From contig JAUIDY010000046.1 of assembly GCA_030428385.1 (NCBI GenBank), positions 1 to 43,597 of the forward strand: 43,597 nt of DNA, written 5' to 3'. A program made the position numbers and the translations under genes. The notes under the pieces were generated by a model. The model searched no databases and was not told the DNA's origin. It saw nothing but the letters and a program-made list of their open reading frames with translations. This document shows positions 1-43,597 of this stretch, in pieces. Source of the stretch: Rhodothermia bacterium (GTDB lineage: Bacteria > Bacteroidota > Rhodothermia > Rhodothermales > JAAAOL01). Position 1 is the first letter of the stretch. Every line of letters begins with the position of its first letter.

Positions 1-600
1 TTCGATGTCGAACTTGAGCGCGGTAAAGCCCCGCGCCTCCACCGCTTGCGCTTTGGCGGCGTAGGCCTCCGGCGTCTCGTCCGCCCCCGCGTGACAGTCG
101 TTGTAGAGGCGGATGCGGTCGCGGAATTTGCCGCCGAGGAGTTGGTACACAGGCACACCGAGCGCCTTGCCAGCGAGGTCCCACAACGCCGTCTCTACTG
201 CCGAGAGCACGGCCACAAACATGCCCGACTGCGCTCCCTCAAAGAAGCCCGAACGGCGGATCTGCTCGAACAAACGATGGACATTTAGCGGGTTTTCGCC
301 CCGGATGCGCCGCCCGAACATTTGCACCAGGTGGTACGTGCCCGGCGTCGCGTCCACGCCCTCGCCGCAGCCCCACACATCCTGGTTGGTGTAGATTTTA
401 ACAAACAGGCTGTGTCCGCCCCGAATATAGCCGCACATGACGTCGGTGATCTCTAAGTCGGACGGACGGGAATGCAGGTTGGCGTTGTGTTCGACGGCAG
501 TCTCCAGCCCTTGGCCGAAGCTGGTCAACGGCGTCGCTGCTGCCATCGCGCTGGCAATGGCACCTTTGGTGAGGAAGGAACGGCGGGATTGTGTTTTCAT
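1..600 (-). CDS. Tat-exported enolase-superfamily (mandelate racemase/muconate lactonizing-like) protein, C-terminus cut by window edge
   Basis: The first 200 residues are present; the rest lies beyond base 1. The ATG at 600 opens a twin-arginine signal (SRRSFLTKG, residues 5-13) and an Ala-rich stretch. The enolase-superfamily capping domain follows (about 47-165, with GENPLNV, AVETALWDLAGKA and GVPVYQLLGGK), and then the start of the barrel with the KxD motif K196-F-D198 that supplies a catalytic base. In this superfamily such enzymes abstract a proton alpha to a carboxylate, typically dehydrating or epimerising sugar acids. It is a clear paralogue of the protein at 1897-3345 and is the last visible gene of a leftward cluster. 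Family is secure; the metal ligands are off-window and the substrate is unknown. Confidence 0.9.
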   Translation of the reverse strand, partial: MKTQSRRSFLTKGAIASAMAAATPLTSFGQGLETAVEHNANLHSRPSDLEITDVMCGYIRGGHSLFVKIYTNQDVWGCGEGVDATPGTYHLVQMFGRRIRGENPLNVHRLFEQIRRSGFFEGAQSGMFVAVLSAVETALWDLAGKALGVPVYQLLGGKFRDRIRLYNDCHAGADETPEAYAAKAQAVEARGFTALKFDIE

Positions 601-660
601 GGGTGGGATACGTTTAATGCTATTGGATTTCGTGCTATGTTTTGGCAGTGCTTGTTCTCC

Positions 661-755
661 TGTCATCCCGAACGCAGGTGAGTGATCTCCCACGATATCA
701 TGTAGCAAGACTTAAAAGTGGGAGATCTCTCCTCACGATGTTCGTCGAGATGACA
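661..755. repeat. REP/MITE-like palindromic intergenic element
   Basis: A stretch of about 95 bases can fold into one long imperfect hairpin. The ends are TGTCATC (661-667) and its exact complement GATGACA (749-755). The inner arms GTGAGTGATCTCCCAC and GTGGGAGATCTCTCCTCAC are near-perfect complements. It fills the gap between the two genes of the leftward cluster. The TGTCATCC...GATGACA ends resemble intergenic palindromes scattered in many bacterial genomes; no second copy was found in this window. It may act on mRNA stability or be a non-autonomous mobile element. Confidence 0.6.
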
Positions 756-799
756 AGCGTATAAGCTGGTGATCGGTGTAGACTGATTTCAGGTGACGC

Positions 800-1750
800 T
801 TACCAGGTACGGTTGCTCAAATACTCCTGTATCTGCTCACGCGGCACGGGCAGTTCGTCGATGTGGTCGTTGAGCCACTGGGAAAAGTCGCGCTCGATCT
901 CGTCGGACCAGCGCGTATCAATCTGTCCCGGCGTGTAGACCTTTTCCCTCAGGCGTTGGTGACCAAACATGTCACGCAGGCGCACAATTTCGGAGACCGT
1001 CACCACGCGTTCTGCCAAATGCGGCGGGATAAAAATGACCCCGCCATCACGTCCCAGCACCACATCACCCGGCATCACGGTGGCCTGCCCGATACGGGTG
1101 GGTTGGTTGATGCCAACGAGCGTCGTGTTTAGCCGCCCGTCGGGGTTATTGAGGTGGTGTGACGGATGGTAACTGCGGAAAAACGACGTGAACGAGCCGA
1201 TTTCCTTGAGCCCATCGATATCGCGTATGGCACCGTCGTAGACAATGCCATTGCCGGAGTTGGCGAATATGGCGTTGCCAAGGTTGTCGCCAATGGTCGG
1301 ACCGTCGAGATGGGCACCGAACTGGTCGACCACATACACATCGCCCGGTACCAGCATGTCGATGGGCCACGAGTTCTGCGACTTGATGCGCCCGTCTTCG
1401 TTGTGTCCCCGGTCGTCGATCACGCGGTGAATGTCGGGTCGCCCTGGCATAAACGTCGCCGTCAGCGCCCGCCCGATGAGTACGCTGTCGGGGTTGATGG
1501 TCATCCAGCCTTCCTCGTACTGGAAATTGAAGTTCTCGCTGCGAAGCACCGCCCATGCCTCTTCGAGCGTGACCAGCTTCATCCGTTCGAGCACGTCGTC
1601 TGGCACGCGGGGCCGACCGTCCTCAAAACGCTCGCCGTCCCACTCGGGCGTCAGGAAGATGAGTTCGTCTTTGGCGATTTGCTGCGCGAGGGTGGGTACC
1701 GCGAGGAACAGCATCAGCACGAAGAGGGGGAGGAGTTTGGGTAGCGTCAT
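800..1750 (-). CDS. Exported RraA-family class II aldolase (HMG/CHA aldolase-like)
   Basis: This 316-residue protein has a Sec signal peptide (residues 1-23, ending LAQ) and one RraA/HMG-aldolase domain. RraA-fold aldolases (4-hydroxy-4-methyl-2-oxoglutarate/4-carboxy-4-hydroxy-2-oxoadipate aldolase) cleave pyruvate from 2-keto-4-hydroxy acids using a divalent metal. Their D-x20-R-D signature is visible as D155...R176-D177, with GDNLGN at 154-159. Protein-only RraA regulators of RNase E lack this full motif and are cytoplasmic, so an aldolase is more likely. The ATG at 1750 is preferred over an in-frame TTG at 1759. It lies between the two enolase-superfamily genes and has a paralogue at 3510-4436. 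The substrate is inferred to be a 2-keto-3-deoxy sugar acid. Confidence 0.85.
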   Translation of the reverse strand: MTLPKLLPLFVLMLFLAVPTLAQQIAKDELIFLTPEWDGERFEDGRPRVPDDVLERMKLVTLEEAWAVLRSENFNFQYEEGWMTINPDSVLIGRALTATFMPGRPDIHRVIDDRGHNEDGRIKSQNSWPIDMLVPGDVYVVDQFGAHLDGPTIGDNLGNAIFANSGNGIVYDGAIRDIDGLKEIGSFTSFFRSYHPSHHLNNPDGRLNTTLVGINQPTRIGQATVMPGDVVLGRDGGVIFIPPHLAERVVTVSEIVRLRDMFGHQRLREKVYTPGQIDTRWSDEIERDFSQWLNDHIDELPVPREQIQEYLSNRTW

Positions 1751-1774
1751 GGGTAGCAATGTCGGTACGAGGTC

Positions 1775-1887
1775 ATCAAACCGCCTCCTTGAGGGGGCTG
1801 GAGGTGTTCATCGTCGAGAAAACACCCTCCGGTTTCCGCTTGCGCGAAATCTACCTCCCTCAAAGGGCGGGTTGAGGTTTGGTTGAT
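1775..1887. repeat. Second REP/MITE-like imperfect palindrome
   Basis: The 146-base gap between two leftward genes is largely an inverted repeat. The outer arms ATCAAACCGCCTCCTTGAGG and CCTCAAAGGGCGGGTTGAGG..TTGAT are imperfect complements. An inner hairpin pairs GGAGGTGTT (1800-1808) with AACACCCTCC (1821-1830) with one bulged C. Its sequence differs from the element at 661-755, so it is a different repeat type. Intergenic palindromes with CCTCCCTTTGAGGG-like cores are common in Bacteroidota genomes. Function unknown. Confidence 0.45.
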
Positions 1888-1896
1888 TCGTTATCT

Positions 1897-3345
1897 CTAG
1901 CTCCAGATCCGGTCCCAGGAGCGGGGTTCATCCCATTCGGGCGTGGGTGCAAACAGTTCGGTATCGTCGCGCAGGTGTTCTTTGACGGCTTCCTCGTTGA
2001 GTTCTACTCCCAGTCCCGGCGTCTCGGGTACCTTTACGAAGCCGTCTTGCACAATCGGCTTTTCGATGCCGGTCACGAGATCTTCCCACCACGGATTATC
2101 CACCGAATGGTGTTCCAATGCAATAAAATTGGCGGTAGCGGCGGCGCTGTGGACGCTGCCCAAGAACGACACGGGGGACGCCGCATGATGCAGCGCCTGT
2201 GCGACGCCATGCTCTTCGGCATAGTCACCGATGCGCTTGGTTTCTAGAATCCCTCCCGAAGAGTTGGGATCAGGATGCACGATGTCGACGGCGCGGGTGT
2301 CGATGAGCGGCTTAAAGTGTTCGAGCAGATAGATGTCTTCGCCCGTAATGGTCGGCGTGTTGATGGCGAGCGAAATTTCTTTCCACATCTCCGTGTAGTC
2401 CCACGGCACCATGTCTTCGAGCCATGCCAGCCGGTACGGCTCCACGGCATTGCCCAGCCGAATGGCCTCGTTGACGCCAAAGTGACCGTAGTGGTCAGAA
2501 GCTATCGGGACTTCATAGCCTACGGACTCTCGCACGGCAGCCAAAAATTCGGTGATACGCGCCAGCCCTTTGTCCGTAATTTGAATACGCGTGAAGGGAT
2601 GCCGGGTCATGCCATACGACCCAGGACGGCGGGACCACTGCTGCAGGTTTTCATCCCACATGTTTTTTCCGACGATGGTCCCCTCCTCGTTTTTTACCAG
2701 GTCCACGCCAAAATCCATTTTCAGGAACGTAAACCCCTTGTCGATCCGCCCCTTCATGCGTTCGGCAAATTCCTGAGGCGTAGGAGCCATCGGGGTGTCC
2801 ACGTAGATGCGCACCTGATCGCGGTATTTACCCCCCAGCATCTGATACACGGGCACGCCATACGCCTTGCCTGCCAGGTCCCACAATGCCATCTCCACGG
2901 CACAAACACCGCCTGCCTGTCGGGCCTGCCCTCCGAATTGCTTGATGCGCTTGAACAGCATCTCCACGTTGCACGGGTTTTCGCCGAGAATGCGGCTTTT
3001 GAGGAACAACGCATACCGGGCGTCAGCCCCATCCCGCACGTCGCCGTGCCCCATAAGCCCCTGGTTGGTGTAGATGCGGATGATGGGGACGTTTCCCACT
3101 TCGGCCACCCGCATGTCGGTGATCTTTAGATCCGACGGTGCAGAACTGCGCCGCACGTTCTGAGAGGCATACGCCACTTGATCGGCCACGGGCAGGTGCA
3201 TCACCGCTGCCATGCTGAGCCCACCAAGCCCCGCCTTTTTCAGAAAGGACCGGCGTCCGTTTTCAGCAGGTGACGGATCTGTCGGAGACGATGTCTTCCG
3301 GATGGGCGAATCGTTTTGTAACAGATGTTTCAGGGAGGCTTTCAT
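1897..3345 (-). CDS. Tat-exported enolase-superfamily sugar-acid dehydratase-like protein
   Basis: The 482 residues begin with a long n-region and a twin-arginine signal (GRRSFLKKAGLGG, from residue 30). A capping domain follows (about 72-185; AVEMALWDLAGKAYGVPVYQ), then an enolase-type barrel. Visible catalytic features are K209-M-D211 (KxD), metal-ligand candidates D284 (SDHYGH), E310 (WLED) and E336 (TGED), and the late barrel motif ALHHAASPVS near 385-393. The arrangement resembles galactonate/gluconate dehydratase-type members of the mandelate racemase group, which convert aldonates to 2-keto-3-deoxy acids. The extra C-terminus ends in TPEWDEPRSWDRIWS, a Trp-rich tail. It is flanked by two RraA-type aldolase genes. 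Family is secure; substrate and reaction are inferred. Confidence 0.92.
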   Translation of the reverse strand: MKASLKHLLQNDSPIRKTSSPTDPSPAENGRRSFLKKAGLGGLSMAAVMHLPVADQVAYASQNVRRSSAPSDLKITDMRVAEVGNVPIIRIYTNQGLMGHGDVRDGADARYALFLKSRILGENPCNVEMLFKRIKQFGGQARQAGGVCAVEMALWDLAGKAYGVPVYQMLGGKYRDQVRIYVDTPMAPTPQEFAERMKGRIDKGFTFLKMDFGVDLVKNEEGTIVGKNMWDENLQQWSRRPGSYGMTRHPFTRIQITDKGLARITEFLAAVRESVGYEVPIASDHYGHFGVNEAIRLGNAVEPYRLAWLEDMVPWDYTEMWKEISLAINTPTITGEDIYLLEHFKPLIDTRAVDIVHPDPNSSGGILETKRIGDYAEEHGVAQALHHAASPVSFLGSVHSAAATANFIALEHHSVDNPWWEDLVTGIEKPIVQDGFVKVPETPGLGVELNEEAVKEHLRDDTELFAPTPEWDEPRSWDRIWS

Positions 3346-3509
3346 GGATGTGATGGGTGAAAGGTGAGAATATCAAGCTGCGAGTATAGAAGTGGCGTTG
3401 TATAGCTTCGTTGCCTTCGGCTCGGCGAACGCGGGAATCTGGGAAGGCCCCGCACAGCGATGTATGTTGGATCCCCACCTTAATGCGAAAGGCAGGTAAC
3501 AGCACGAAT
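3346..3509. other. 164-base spacer within the sugar-acid cluster
   Basis: No gene is visible. The segment has GC-rich pieces (GGCTCGGCGAACGCGGGAATCT and GGATCCCCACC, about 3419-3480) that could be remnants of a palindromic intergenic repeat, but pairing is too weak to call. No promoter was recognised, so the cluster may be read through from upstream. Confidence 0.3.
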
Positions 3510-4436
3510 TCACCAATTGCGGTCGGTGAGAATCTGCTGGATACGCGAACGCGGTACGGGAAGCGTGTCGATGTTGGCTTCGAGCCAGCCGAAAAAGTCT
3601 TCCCGAATCTCATTGCTCCACTGTGCATCGATCTGCCCCGGCGTGTAGGTGCCTTCGCGGAGACGCTGGTGGCCAAACATATCGCGCAGCGCTACAATTT
3701 CAGCGGTCTCCACCACCTCTTCGACCAGATGCGCGGGTATAAAGATGACCCCTTCTCGTTTGGCCAGAACCACATCACCGGGGAGCACCACCGCTTCGCC
3801 AATCTTGATCGGCGTGTTGATGCCATTAACCATCATCTCCTGGATGTAAGTGGGGTCCCAGCCCCGCACGAAAGCATTAAACCCTTCGATCTTCGACAAC
3901 CCTTCCAGGTCACGCAGCGATCCATCAAAAACCACCCCGTTGCCGGACTTCGCAAAGATAGAATTCCCCAGGTTGTCTCCGATTAGCGTCCCCCATGATA
4001 TCTTGCCAAAGCCATCGGCTACGTACACATCACCTTGTTGCAGCATGTCGATGGGCCACGAGTTCATCGCTCCGATGCGCCCCTCGGCGTGGCCCTGTTC
4101 CAGCATCCGCTGCGCCAGTTCAGGGCTGTTGGGCAGGTATTGCACCGTCAGCGCCCGCCCAACGATGGGCACATCCTGATGGATCATCTTCCACTCGCCC
4201 GCAAACTTGCTGTGGTACCCATGCCGACGAATCACTCCCCACGCTTCCTCGATGGAGACACGCTTCATGCGCTCAAGCAAATCGGCCGAAACCATCGGGC
4301 GGCCGTCCTCCGAGCGTTCGCCTTCCCATTCGGCGGTGTAAAACATAACGTCGTCTGGTGTGGCGACCTGAGCATGGGCGGACATGCCAGCCACTGACGA
4401 TAGGAATAGAAAAAGAGCGATGTAGCGGGTGATCAT
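3510..4436 (-). CDS. Exported RraA-family class II aldolase, paralogue 2
   Basis: This 308-residue protein has a Sec signal peptide (residues 1-23, ending SAHAQ) followed by an RraA/HMG-aldolase fold. The D-x20-R-D motif is intact: D154 (GDNLGN) and R175-D176 (DGSLRDLEG). It aligns along its length with the protein at 800-1750, including the mature start (EWEGERSEDGRP) and the end (MFGHQRLRE...YTPGQIDAQWS), so the two arose by duplication. It sits between the UxuA-like gene upstream (44-base gap) and the enolase-superfamily gene downstream. It presumably cleaves the keto acid made by one of the neighbouring dehydratases, outside the cytoplasm. The role is inferred from motif and neighbours. 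Confidence 0.85.
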   Translation of the reverse strand: MITRYIALFLFLSSVAGMSAHAQVATPDDVMFYTAEWEGERSEDGRPMVSADLLERMKRVSIEEAWGVIRRHGYHSKFAGEWKMIHQDVPIVGRALTVQYLPNSPELAQRMLEQGHAEGRIGAMNSWPIDMLQQGDVYVADGFGKISWGTLIGDNLGNSIFAKSGNGVVFDGSLRDLEGLSKIEGFNAFVRGWDPTYIQEMMVNGINTPIKIGEAVVLPGDVVLAKREGVIFIPAHLVEEVVETAEIVALRDMFGHQRLREGTYTPGQIDAQWSNEIREDFFGWLEANIDTLPVPRSRIQQILTDRNW

Positions 4437-39257: not shown

Positions 39258-39707
39258 GACTGTGGGAGAGGATGGTAGGGCAGGGAGCATATAATGAATA
39301 CAACAGGTTCACGTTTGAGCGCATCTGGGGAGTTGCTCAAACCCCATTGATATTTTCGGGTGGGGTTATCCGTCCTTTCAAGGAGCCGATACCATAGAAA
39401 CGCACTTTTCGATTGGAAACGCTTCCATGTAATAATAACCCACTTAAAAAATCTTGCCAAATCATTAAATATTTCCCTAATTGCGAACAGACCTCCATTC
39501 AACGCTGTTTCGGCTTGCCGATTGAATCAGTTTGAGTCGCAAAATGAAACTATTCGAGGCCCATCTCTTATTGAAGATGCCAATCCTAGAACTAGAAATA
39601 GCTTCTTTTCTTATAAAAAGCAGCTTCGCCATTCGTTCTACTTTACAGGCATCCCTCCAAACAGACCTTGTGTTTTAATTCGTATTCCGTAACCACCCTT
39701 GCCCCAC
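39258..39707. other. 450-base AT-rich intergenic region
   Basis: No credible gene is seen on either strand; the open frames here have no signal peptide or recognisable domain and unusual composition. The left part should hold the RidA-like promoter. It has TGGGG (39326-39330), AACCCCA (39340-39346) and TGGGGTT (39361-39367), which could form two mutually exclusive hairpins. The stretch 39420-39480 is much richer in A and T than the neighbours. Confidence 0.5.
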
Positions 39708-40871
39708 ATGCCTCTGCCCACAACCATAGTTAAGGTTATACAACCTGATTCAACATGGGTAGTTTTTACACATCTTTTGATGGGGTGTGTTTTGTTCATT
39801 GGGTGTTCTAAGACCGGTAGTTGGCATCGTTCTGACGCTACGAACAGCACTCCTGAACACCGTGCCTACCTGGATCGAGCGTTACCACTTACCCCCGTTC
39901 AATTCAGGGCTGTAACGCTGGATGCCCGCCACCCACCTGATGGGGCCATCCTGCTTCGGCTCCAAGCGCTCGGCGTTAAGCAAATAACACTTATCACCTT
40001 TGGGTTTCAGGAAAACCCCGCTTCTCCACACATTCGTATGAATCCTGATGCACGCTGGTATAGCGAAAGCGACGCCGGGATACGAACACTTGCTCAGCAG
40101 GCCGCTGCACTTGGAATAGAAACCATCATTAAACCACACATCTGGGTAGGCGGGTACAACCCTGAGGGGCAAACCCGAGATCGTATTGGGTTTTCAACGG
40201 AGGGAGAGTGGGCACAGTGGGAGGCTTCTTATCGGCAATTTATCTTGCATTATGCCTATTTGTCACAAGAAATAAAAGCTCCGCTATTTGTTATCGGCAC
40301 CGAGTTGGCCCATGTTGCTAAGTCCCGCCCCAATTTCTGGCGTTCCCTCATTGCTGAGATTCGCCATGTCTATTCAGGGCCGCTAACTTATGCTGGAAAT
40401 TGGTACGCCGAATATGAAGAAATATCGTTCTGGGATGCCCTGGACTTTATTGGCGTGCAGGCCTATTTCGAGTTGAGCAAAGAAGATAATCCCACGCTTC
40501 GGGATATGGTTTCTGGATGGGAACCCCACCTTGAAGCTCTTCAGCAACTCGCCCGATCAACCGGAAAACCGGTGTTGTTTACAGAGCTTGGATACCGAAG
40601 TGTGCCCTATGCGGCGGCGCAACCCTGGCGATGGCCCGAACGCGAAGAATCTGTTCCAAGTGACACTACCCTTCAAGCACTTCTCTATCAAGCCTTTTTC
40701 GAGCAAGTTTGGTCAGAAACCTGGTTTGCTGGGGCCATTCTCTGGAAATGGCACCCTACAGAAAATGCCCAGCACCCCGGTCGGGCGCGGGATTTTACTC
40801 CCCAGTTTAAGCCTGCAGAAACAATCATCGGGACTTGGTTCAACCAATCGGCTATTCTTCCTACCCGATAA
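39708..40871 (+). CDS. GH113-type glycoside hydrolase lipoprotein
   Basis: From the ATG at 39708 the protein has 387 residues, with a long n-region, a hydrophobic core and lipobox FIGC (Cys33). The TIM barrel has the clan GH-A pair: the acid/base E199 in FVIGTELAH after strand 4 and the nucleophile E293 in VLFTELGYRS after strand 7. IKPHIWVGG and GVQAYFEL are typical of GH113, whose characterised members are endo-beta-mannanases. Anchored in the envelope, it could trim mannan or a related glycan. It stands alone with no sugar transporter beside it. The upstream region is AT-rich, which may point to acquisition. Confidence 0.85.
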   Translation: MPLPTTIVKVIQPDSTWVVFTHLLMGCVLFIGCSKTGSWHRSDATNSTPEHRAYLDRALPLTPVQFRAVTLDARHPPDGAILLRLQALGVKQITLITFGFQENPASPHIRMNPDARWYSESDAGIRTLAQQAAALGIETIIKPHIWVGGYNPEGQTRDRIGFSTEGEWAQWEASYRQFILHYAYLSQEIKAPLFVIGTELAHVAKSRPNFWRSLIAEIRHVYSGPLTYAGNWYAEYEEISFWDALDFIGVQAYFELSKEDNPTLRDMVSGWEPHLEALQQLARSTGKPVLFTELGYRSVPYAAAQPWRWPEREESVPSDTTLQALLYQAFFEQVWSETWFAGAILWKWHPTENAQHPGRARDFTPQFKPAETIIGTWFNQSAILPTR

Positions 40872-40907
40872 AAAAATAGCGCCGCGTCTTGCAGGACACG
40901 GCGCTAT
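40870..40907 (-). terminator. Intrinsic terminator of the pilin-like operon
   Basis: ATAGCGCCG (40876-40884) pairs with CGGCGCTAT (40899-40907), with a further GTC/GAC pairing inside. Read on the minus strand it is followed by a run of T (complement of 40870-40876). The T-run overlaps the stop codon of the converging GH113 gene. It lies 24 bases after the last operon gene. Confidence 0.88.
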
Positions 40908-40930: not shown

Positions 40931-42085
40931 TCAAGCGGGCTCTTCTTCCTCTTCTTCCACGGGCACTAGTTCAATCTCAATAACCTGGTCACTGTAATCA
41001 GGCTGATTGCCCCAGTCCTCCAAGTCCCTGTACCCTTGCACGTCGATATTCCATCCATCTCCTCCATAGGACCAACCGATGAGTGGGACCAATTCCCATA
41101 CCTCGTTGCCATATCCGTTGATCTTAATGTCGTTGTGCTGATCTACGCTAAAGACTTCGAGGTCCTCGAAGGCAATACGCCATATATTTTCGTTGAACGA
41201 ACTTTGCTCAACCATCGCAAAGGTGCCTTCTGTCATATCAGTGATATCCCCTGTTTCAAACTCGAGAGCCGGGTGACTATGACAGAATTCCCCCCCATAG
41301 GGACCACCCGGATATCCACAGGCCGTCCAAGTGATGTTCTCGTAAACCACACCCGTGTCACCCTGCTCTGAACAATCAGCATCAGCAGCAAGGATAAAAT
41401 TCATTTGGGTGCCGGGCACCAATAATTGGGAGAACGTTGTCGATTGACCATCCCTGTTTTTTCCAGAGTCGAAGACAAGCCCAATTTCCTCGGTGTAACC
41501 GCTTTCTGAATCAGGATCAGGGATATATTGCTGGAGAAAGATCGCGGAGCACCAGCCTGCTTGAGACTCGATAAAGGTCACGTGTAACTCATATTCTTCG
41601 GCACACTCTTCCCCTTCTGCACATTCGACACATAGAACCCCGTCATCCCCACATACAGGGGTTGCAGGATCAACCGTTGGGATCATGGCCTTGTTTGTCG
41701 TGATGAGATGATAGGCCGAGTCTAACGCTCCAGACACAGGGTCGGTATAGTAATAATACCCCTCTGCTTTTGCGAAATATGCTTCTCCACCCGCCCCCGC
41801 TTCGAGCCACGCCTTGTATTTCCCATTATCTAGCTGCCGAATAACAGGATAGTCGACCTGCGACATAAAATCATCGATGTCGTCCCAAGTTGAGTTATCC
41901 TCTATATTTTTGGCCGCTGCGATGATTTCATTCAGACCTGAATGGGCCAATTCGCGTGCGAGCAACTCAGACTGACGCGCACTTTGGCTCACGTCTATGG
42001 CCTTGTCCACTTCATTGCTCTGAAATAGCAAAAAGCCACCTGCAAAAATGAAGGCTGCAACAAAAAGAAGTCCTAGCTTACCCAT
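40931..42085 (-). CDS. Membrane-anchored pilin-like protein with large acidic outer domain
   Basis: The 384 residues start with one membrane helix (about 4-21; LGLLFVAAFIFAGGFLLF), then an amphipathic helix (ARQSELLARELAHSGLNEII) like the spine of minor pilins such as PilX, then a mostly beta domain to the end. There is no G/FxxxE prepilin peptidase site. The outer domain has many Cys (CGDDG, CVECAEGEEC, WCS, CSEQ, CGYPGG, FCHSH) that could form disulfides, and the tail is very acidic (EEEEEEPA). It is the last gene of a three-gene operon of similarly built proteins. Function unknown; a surface fibre tip or adhesin is plausible. Confidence 0.72.
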   Translation of the reverse strand: MGKLGLLFVAAFIFAGGFLLFQSNEVDKAIDVSQSARQSELLARELAHSGLNEIIAAAKNIEDNSTWDDIDDFMSQVDYPVIRQLDNGKYKAWLEAGAGGEAYFAKAEGYYYYTDPVSGALDSAYHLITTNKAMIPTVDPATPVCGDDGVLCVECAEGEECAEEYELHVTFIESQAGWCSAIFLQQYIPDPDSESGYTEEIGLVFDSGKNRDGQSTTFSQLLVPGTQMNFILAADADCSEQGDTGVVYENITWTACGYPGGPYGGEFCHSHPALEFETGDITDMTEGTFAMVEQSSFNENIWRIAFEDLEVFSVDQHNDIKINGYGNEVWELVPLIGWSYGGDGWNIDVQGYRDLEDWGNQPDYSDQVIEIELVPVEEEEEEPA

Positions 42086-42148
42086 GGGGTGCCTCCGAAG
42101 GTGTGTGTGTATAGGTCCACGGATTCGTGGAAAATGATGATGAGGATG

Positions 42149-42781
42149 TCAGTCATAATCCACCAACAGTGTATTCCCGTAGTACAGTTCACGAATAGTG
42201 TTATTGCTAACATCATAAGGTGTAACAACCGCTATTCGGACGCGGGTATTTTTAATGGTGCCTCCGGGAACAGCAAGCGGATTAGCGATCACGGCTCCCG
42301 TGCTGTCCAAGAAATCAACCCGAAAATCGGACACTGGGATTGAAATGCTTCCAACCGGATCTGTCCCAAAAGTCCCCCCAACAACATCCGACTCGTATCG
42401 ATTAAAGGTGAATGTCATCAGGTTTTTCCCGTTTACATTGCGCCGGCTGGAATCCGCCAATTGATATCGAACATCCAGGGTGTCTGCAGTAAATGCTATG
42501 CTTTCTACATAATTAACCGCCGTGGTATCAGTACCCTCGTATGCGATATACGTCTTTTCTACAAGCTCAATCAGCGGATTCTCGTTTGCAGTCAAAAAAT
42601 CACCCATTCGATCTAAGTCATCTTCCATCCAAGTCATAAAATCATCGGTGGATGTGCGGATGATCAGGTTTGACGTTTGCTCAATCTGTACCTCTATCAT
42701 GCGCTGGCGTGCCACCAACAGAAGGAGCACTACTGTAGCAACGATGATTGATGCCGTCAGGTTGTCCCAGATTATCCACAT
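42149..42781 (-). CDS. Membrane-anchored pilin-like protein, middle gene
   Basis: The 210 residues begin with one membrane helix (about 6-25; NLTASIIVATVVLLLLVARQ) that runs into a long amphipathic helix (QRMIEVQIEQTSNLIIRT, DFMTWMEDDLDRMGDFL). A beta-rich domain follows (ADTLDVRYQLAD, NLMTFTFNRYE, RVRIAVVTPYD). This resembles PilW/GspJ-type minor pseudopilins in layout, but no prepilin cleavage site is seen. The start is 20 bases after the upstream gene stop, so the operon is tight. Function unknown. Confidence 0.72.
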   Translation of the reverse strand: MWIIWDNLTASIIVATVVLLLLVARQRMIEVQIEQTSNLIIRTSTDDFMTWMEDDLDRMGDFLTANENPLIELVEKTYIAYEGTDTTAVNYVESIAFTADTLDVRYQLADSSRRNVNGKNLMTFTFNRYESDVVGGTFGTDPVGSISIPVSDFRVDFLDSTGAVIANPLAVPGGTIKNTRVRIAVVTPYDVSNNTIRELYYGNTLLVDYD

Positions 42782-42801
42782 GGCGCTAACTCAGCCGGAT
42801 A

Positions 42802-43260
42802 TTATTCAAAGAATCGTTCCAGGTTGGCTCCTCCCGGTAGAAACAGATGCTGTCGATCATAGACGGTAACCTCAACAGCCTGCACCCCTGAATCGATAGA
42901 AACAACAGAATCACGATTCGCAGGATCACGCCAAGTGACGGACACATCGACATCAAAGGAGAACATCGACCCACTCAGCTCGAAGTTTTTCAGGAAGTTC
43001 TGGTCATGGAAGTCGTCCAGATCATTACAAACCCCTACGCCACCAAATTGCGAACAGGCAACAGAGCCATCTCCAAATGCCCCATCTCCAAAATCGTTGA
43101 TCGCGATGGTCTGCATCACCTCTTTCGCCACTGCACCAGCCATTTCACCCATCTCGATACTGATAAGGTTACGCTCGACCCGAGCATAACGCTGGTACGA
43201 CGAAAACGTAAACGCCGTCGCAAGCGTCAAGGCTAGCAATGCCAATAGAGTCTGAGGCAT
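42802..43260 (-). CDS. Membrane-anchored pilin-like protein, first gene
   Basis: The 152 residues start with one membrane helix (about 4-20; TLLALLALTLATAFTFS) followed by an amphipathic helix (RVERNLISIEMGEMAGAVAKEV) and a small beta domain (FSFDVDVSVTWRD, VQAVEVTVYDRQ). Two Cys (VACSQ, GVCND) could pair. The layout is that of PilV/GspI-type small pseudopilins without a prepilin peptidase motif. It heads the operon, with a candidate promoter and leader hairpin upstream. No pilus ATPase or platform gene is in the window. Confidence 0.72.
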   Translation of the reverse strand: MPQTLLALLALTLATAFTFSSYQRYARVERNLISIEMGEMAGAVAKEVMQTIAINDFGDGAFGDGSVACSQFGGVGVCNDLDDFHDQNFLKNFELSGSMFSFDVDVSVTWRDPANRDSVVSIDSGVQAVEVTVYDRQHLFLPGGANLERFFE

Positions 43261-43287
43261 AATCGAGAGGAGCAGTTTCGAGTGAAT

Positions 43288-43323
43288 GGGTAGATTCGCG
43301 CTTTCGCAATTTCGAATCTACCC
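43288..43323 (-). promoter_or_regulatory. Leader hairpin or operator of the pilin-like operon
   Basis: A perfect 11-base inverted repeat (GGGTAGATTCG at 43288-43298, CGAATCTACCC at 43313-43323) has a 14-base loop. It lies 28 bases upstream of the first start codon and downstream of the candidate promoter, so it would be in the mRNA leader. There is no T-run, so it is not a simple terminator. Confidence 0.55.
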
Positions 43324-43337
43324 TAAGCGGCTACTTA

Positions 43338-43365
43338 AATATAAGGGTGCGAGGCAAAAAGTAAA
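43338..43365 (-). promoter_or_regulatory. Candidate promoter of the pilin-like operon
   Basis: On the minus strand TTTACT (43365-43360) and TATATT (43343-43338) are separated by 16 bases, a fair match to a housekeeping promoter. Transcription would start near 43331, giving a leader of about 70 bases that contains the hairpin. Confidence 0.4.
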
Positions 43366-43597
43366 GGATTACCAACGGATGTAGCCCAACCCAAACAAAG
43401 GGTGTCTATCTTCTCACCTCCCTGTACTGCGCTAAATGCTCAAATGCAGGAACATTTCTCACTTTTTACTCCACTAGGCGCTCGAATTTTTCACAATTGT
43501 CCCAACGAATTGCCCCGTTTCAAAAAGTATTCCCGCTCTAATTCTGGTGGGTAAAATCGGAATTTGTCAAAATGAAAAAGGGCCCCTACTCAATAAA
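43366..43597. other. Right-end intergenic sequence
   Basis: With the promoter and hairpin next to it, this belongs to a 337-base gap (43261-43597) without a gene. No open frame of note, repeat or RNA gene was recognised up to the window end. Confidence 0.45.

Follow-up and report, generated by a model that had tools for sequence, protein, structure and literature searches.

The closest described counterparts of the locus reported here are the GspI-GspJ-GspK tip of the type II secretion system (T2SS) and the type IVa pilus (T4aP; PilABCTMNOPQ with the minor pilins FimU/PilVWX or PilHIJK). Pilins are defined by a class III leader, a hydrophilic stretch of 6-26 residues with a glycine at its end; surveys find pilins by this motif, and leader and prepilin peptidase are both treated as core, defining features (PMC4471445). 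Similarly, a survey of type IV filaments counts the peptidase among the shared components, and its generic model needs a recognised major pilin (PMC6668835). In Melioribacter roseus, pilT, pilQ, pilB and pilC are present, pilA and pilD were reported as not found, and the pilus set was judged incomplete (PMC3534657).

We analysed a complete contig of 43,597 bp (hereafter the window), which carries close to one end a three-gene operon, A-B-C. With the GspI-GspJ-GspK tip (3CI0, 2RET, 5BW0, 5VTM) this operon shares the folds of A and B, the gene order, a large third member and the N-terminal spine helix. Unlike that tip, however, A-B-C have no leader or Gly-1 and are encoded with a T4aP-like PilT machine, and the likeness of C is one of position. 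As in the T4aP, the assembly ATPase, platform, retraction ATPase, secretin and minor pilins are found in one cluster, whereas the presumed major pilin and the minor pilins are leaderless here and the peptidase is missing from most carrier genomes. The M. roseus set, compared here via its published account (PMC3534657), is alike in having pilB, pilC, pilT and pilQ without pilA and pilD, and leaderless pilins went unrecognised there. Our own literature search covered open papers, with subscription papers and preprints outside its scope, and turned up no type IV pilus that lacks the leader or works without the peptidase. The system appears to work like a T4aP but fails two features that define the family, the leader and the peptidase, and we therefore do not call it an ordinary member.

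Results

A three-gene operon at the end of the contig

An earlier note on this DNA had proposed three genes in a single operon, and these are indeed real open reading frames, all on the minus strand (Table 1). Gene A is separated from B by 20 bp and B from C by 63 bp. The GGAGG ahead of C backs the start codon assigned to that gene. Upstream of A, promoter consensus matches are no more frequent than in shuffled sequences. Since the contig terminates 337 bp upstream of A, other parts of the system are not visible in the window.

Table 1. Features of the A-B-C operon in the window
Feature	Position	Strand	Size	Description	Basis
Gene A	42802..43260	-	152 aa	Predicted leaderless GspI-type minor pilin, MPQTLLALLALTLATAF...	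ORF list, model, structural matches
Gene B	42149..42781	-	210 aa	Predicted leaderless GspJ-type minor pilin, invariant Asp6	ORF list, model, structural matches
Gene C	40931..42085	-	384 aa	Presumed GspK-type minor pilin, MGK start, multiple Cys	ORF list, position
Shine-Dalgarno GGAGG of C	42092..42096	-		6 bases 5' of ATG; sequence ...TTCGGAGGCACCCC-ATG	
Intrinsic terminator 3' of C	40876..40907	-		Strong; 13-bp stem, 6-base loop, T run; closes the operon	
Operon upstream region	43261..43597	-		No pilB detected; contig end at 43597	

Two other stretches of the window may be recorded. A candidate glycoside hydrolase of 390 aa, lipoprotein-like, is encoded at 39699-40871, convergent with the operon and with a common terminator region. 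By eye, a secreted enolase-superfamily-like protein is paired with an RraA-like one at 1-4436, and the pair occurs twice in tandem, apparently through a duplication.

N-termini without a class III leader

Each of the three open reading frames begins at the first ATG, GTG or TTG past an in-frame stop. True starts lying further upstream and bringing in a cleavage motif, a case raised in the earlier note, were looked for, and the upstream in-frame codons (about 19 for A, 3 for B and 21 for C) contain no class III leader. In the relatives, the orthologues of A, B and C start at the same methionine, as M-x-Q-(T/S) in A, M-x-x-x-x-D in B and M-G-K in C, and there is scant room upstream, with an in-frame stop 1-4 codons away for many of them. 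Homologues of B were found in 47 of 99 relatives, which, together with the common start of the A, B and C orthologues, indicates that these reading frames are more than chance. In B, Met1 and Asp6 are invariant in the alignment (16/16). The acidity of residue 6 was judged from alignments, and a pattern-based count was set aside, since the pattern itself imposed the acid.

The presumed major pilin, which in several relatives is encoded in one cluster with A-B-C (see below), starts with MGQQQLLL, and M1-G2-Q3-Q4-Q5-L6-L7-L8 is invariant in an alignment of 19 sequences across phyla. An MG start is present in 128 of its 133 homologues, and all 128 begin MGQQQ. Conservation starts at the ATG itself; 73 of the 128 have an in-frame stop no more than 4 codons before it, and a minority have at least 10 in-frame codons there. 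Lysine and arginine are absent from the first 28 residues in 117 of the 128, so that the positive-inside rule fails to explain an N-in topology for this protein.

Across homologues, neither this pilin nor A, B or C presents a class III leader of 6-26 residues with a terminal glycine, and a leader hidden behind an upstream start was rejected on the in-frame stops. That A, B and C are pilin-like proteins without prepilin sites, as the earlier note had it, is confirmed, and the absence of the motif is conserved in their orthologues; the true N-termini are predicted from the sequence.

Pilin folds of A and B

AlphaFold models were built from homologue alignments (n=12 for A, n=16 for B). The model of A has a helix at residues 2-59 followed by four strands (pLDDT 85.6), and that of B a single helix at 2-62 followed by seven strands (pLDDT 76.5). 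Both thus present the pilin fold, a long N-terminal helix and then a beta-sheet, and for these two proteins the spine helix and beta domain described from the letters of the sequence were borne out. Foldseek ranked pilins and pseudopilins at the top for both, at weak E-values (0.028 for B and 0.05 for A); the assignment to GspI and GspJ is based on Z-scores. In structural alignment, the best ten entries for B were EpsJ, XcpW, GspJ and a Thermus pilin, at Z 9.6-11.9 over 122-164 residues; GspJ was the best solved match (Z 11.9), and the nearest unrelated chain scored 5.3. The best seven entries for A were XcpV, EpsI and GspI, at Z 7.4-9.2 with GspI on top (9.2), followed by two other pilins at Z 6.7 and then by the nearest unrelated chain at 4.7. 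With GspI the top fold for A and GspJ for B, we take A to be GspI-like and B GspJ-like, in the gene order I-J-K, and the likeness to a GspI/J/K set that the earlier note had pointed out is thereby backed.

By its position and size, C is presumed to be the GspK-type minor pilin. It is third in an A-B-C order that is kept across the relatives, and its profile also picks up the families of A and of the MGQQQ pilin, via the N-terminal helix. A tip complex of the three proteins is plausible.

Family searches of A, B and C against Pfam and NCBIfam returned nothing of value; matches to an amylase inhibitor and to Hok/Gef are chance. A sequence-profile search of solved structures found no pilin for B or for the MGQQQ pilin, and a match of B to isopropylmalate synthase (9e-4) was dropped as partial helical similarity.

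A T4aP-like machine in the relatives and in the same genome

In several of the relatives that carry B, A-B-C belong to a cluster in the order pilin, PilC, PilB, A, B, C, PilT, PilM/N-like and PilQ, which is a complete T4aP-like set. This order, whole or partial, recurs in relatives from the Rhodothermota, Kryptonia, KSB1, Calditrichota and Balneolota. The cluster pilin is a protein of ~150 aa beginning MGQQQLLLLVLG. Pfam and NCBIfam identify the platform protein (T2SSF, 3e-28), the assembly ATPase (T2SSE, 2e-103) and a PilT-family ATPase (5e-95; TIGR01420, 318.6 bits with the cut-off at 319.1). The secretin matches PF00263 at 1.4e-28, and its best NCBIfam match is PilQ. Proteins are conserved at the PilM and PilN positions but matched by no curated family, so that their names are mostly positional, with weak similarity; unlike in the T4aP, no PilOP was identified in the cluster. 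In some relatives, A-B-C sets or C alone are tandemly duplicated within the clusters (L133:8381-12985, L080:5283-11124, L110:8165-10759), which looks as if minor pilin sets had been swapped or multiplied.

A search of the genome for co-occurring secretion or pilus genes, as the earlier note had proposed, found a full T4aP-like set of parts on other contigs. Contig C244 encodes two MGQQQ pilins, PilC (1e-210) and the N-terminal part of PilB, which runs to the contig end; C69 encodes PilT (4e-199 to that of a relative) with PilM- and PilN-like proteins; and C62 encodes the secretin of the set. The earlier statement that there is no ATPase or platform gene therefore holds for the window but not for the genome, in which PilB and PilC are found on C244. 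Nor is the system stripped-down, as had been suggested, since its core machine, made up of PilB, PilC, PilT, PilM/N-like proteins, secretin and presumed major pilin, is present in the same genome. In the window, the minor-pilin genes of this machine are present as a dispersed copy. A second complete A-B-C operon stands alone among unrelated neighbours on contig C36 (L036:9250-11571). Both copies are intact, and their proteins are 57-60% identical; divergence at third codon positions is roughly double that at first and second positions, an excess that indicates purifying selection. A third copy may lie in an assembly gap. Lone extra MGQQQ pilins occur at C176:58570 and C218:29707, away from the core cluster. 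We also observed two PilB-like ATPases of ~650 aa with no visible pilus neighbours (C138:7614-9620 and C150:8311-10278; L038, L039).

The MGQQQ pilin served as the query for a scan of named genomes, which returned at least 368 loci. Phyla were taken from 80 of these, and Rhodothermota, Balneolota, Ignavibacteria, Kryptonia, KSB1 and Calditrichota are among them. A- and B-like genes adjoin the core outside Rhodothermota as well. Cultured carriers include Roseithermus sacchariphilus and Salinivenus, and we presume that Rhodothermus marinus and Salinibacter ruber are probably carriers too.

Most carriers lack a prepilin peptidase

The peptidase domain PF01478 was detected in 8 of the 99 relatives. 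It is absent from 42 of the 47 relatives that carry B, and 40 of the 47 have neither PF01478 nor an N_methyl pilin. Among the relatives, N_methyl pilins and PF01478 co-occur (Fisher p 5e-6), which indicates that the PF01478 search works, and carriage of A-B-C is unrelated to the peptidase (p 0.47). When the sample was widened to 296 genomes from the phylum, 102 had the MGQQQ pilin, 90 of them without a detectable PF01478 peptidase, and again carriage and peptidase showed no association (Fisher p 0.72). Eleven of the peptidase-free carriers are assembled in one contig (G003, G007, G011, G213, G250, G262, G269, G319, G322, G361 and G412), and 37 of 49 named carriers have no peptidase match above the cut-off. 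A rule that carriers never have the peptidase was rejected, as 12 of the 102 do; the data speak for independence, not exclusion. PF06750 gave a convincing match in the genome of the window only and a borderline one in G319. All 14 controls without the enzyme match PF06750 at E<=1, and weak matches to this family are therefore noise.

The genome of the window has a single PF01478 peptidase, in a locus separate from A-B-C on contig C101 (C101:26600-46599; L037), where a PilD-type peptidase, a canonical pseudopilin, a GspE-like ATPase and a 743-aa secretin are encoded. This locus resembles the A-B-C system in its homologous ATPase, secretin and pilin types. In contrast to A, B and C, however, its pseudopilin has a long leader ending in DG|FSMTEL and is encoded beside the peptidase, and it serves as an internal control.

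Discussion

We consider it likely that A, B and C are leaderless GspI/J/K-type minor pilins that act in initiation or at the tip of a T4aP-like retractable pilus independent of prepilin peptidase. In such a pilus, the initiator methionine would stand in the place of the leader and of Gly-1. Given that the hydrophobic helix begins at residues 2-6, the protein would be born in the form that other pilins reach only after cleavage. If the methionine is counted as -1, the invariant acid of B would fall at +5, the place of Glu5. Methionine aminopeptidase would remove the methionine of MG- and M(P/A/S)- proteins; that of B is probably kept. A, B and C would insert with the N-terminus in and the C-terminus out and assemble on the platform protein into a tip, beneath which PilB would add the presumed major pilin. 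The fibre would then exit via the PilQ-like secretin and be retracted by PilT. The two dispersed A-B-C operons and the lone pilins of the same genome suggest that one core machine may be fitted with alternative tips or fibres.

Among solved structures, A and B come closest in fold to the T2SS proteins GspI and GspJ, and an I-J-K set is common to T2SS and T4aP. A-B-C might on these grounds be leaderless pseudopilins of a T2SS-like pseudopilus, whose I-J-K trimer caps a short piston in the periplasm, by which proteins are driven through the secretin. We regard this as unlikely, because the cluster includes a PilT-family retraction ATPase, which the T2SS is not known to have, and because its secretin scores best to PilQ rather than to a GspD-type secretin. 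The separate C101 locus, with a canonical pseudopilin, a peptidase and another secretin of its own, argues in the same direction. Moreover, the minor pilins PilI/J/K of the T4aP are themselves counterparts of GspI/J/K (PMC4471445).

It is also conceivable that the system is otherwise ordinary and that its subunits carry a short leader, either cut by a non-homologous peptidase or made from a non-standard start. In all other type IV filaments prepilins are processed (PMC4471445), and the minority of pilin homologues with in-frame space upstream would accommodate such a leader. Nevertheless, the stops that closely precede so many pilin, A, B and C starts, a conserved block that sets in at the ATG itself and a Shine-Dalgarno sequence placed at the ATG of C make this very improbable. 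Decay of a former pilus would account for an operon that stands apart from the core genes and is present in two copies; yet both copies are intact and under purifying selection, and the core genes exist in the same genome, so that we give hardly any credence to a relic. Returning to leaderless minor pilins of a retractable pilus, we think it likely that they represent a phylum-spanning type IV pilus lineage without prepilin processing. Its subunits would be born mature, with methionine, or glycine after removal of the methionine, at the N-terminus, and would need neither leader nor peptidase nor the N-methylation that this enzyme performs.

If this is true, bacteria that do without the leader yet keep motors, platform, secretin and tip proteins would explain the 'incomplete' pilus sets reported in these groups, and a class of pili that present searches miss would be added to the family. 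The carriers may build retractable pili by an unrecognised route. The role of prepilin cleavage would in turn become open to direct test, by asking what the leader does that these systems manage without.
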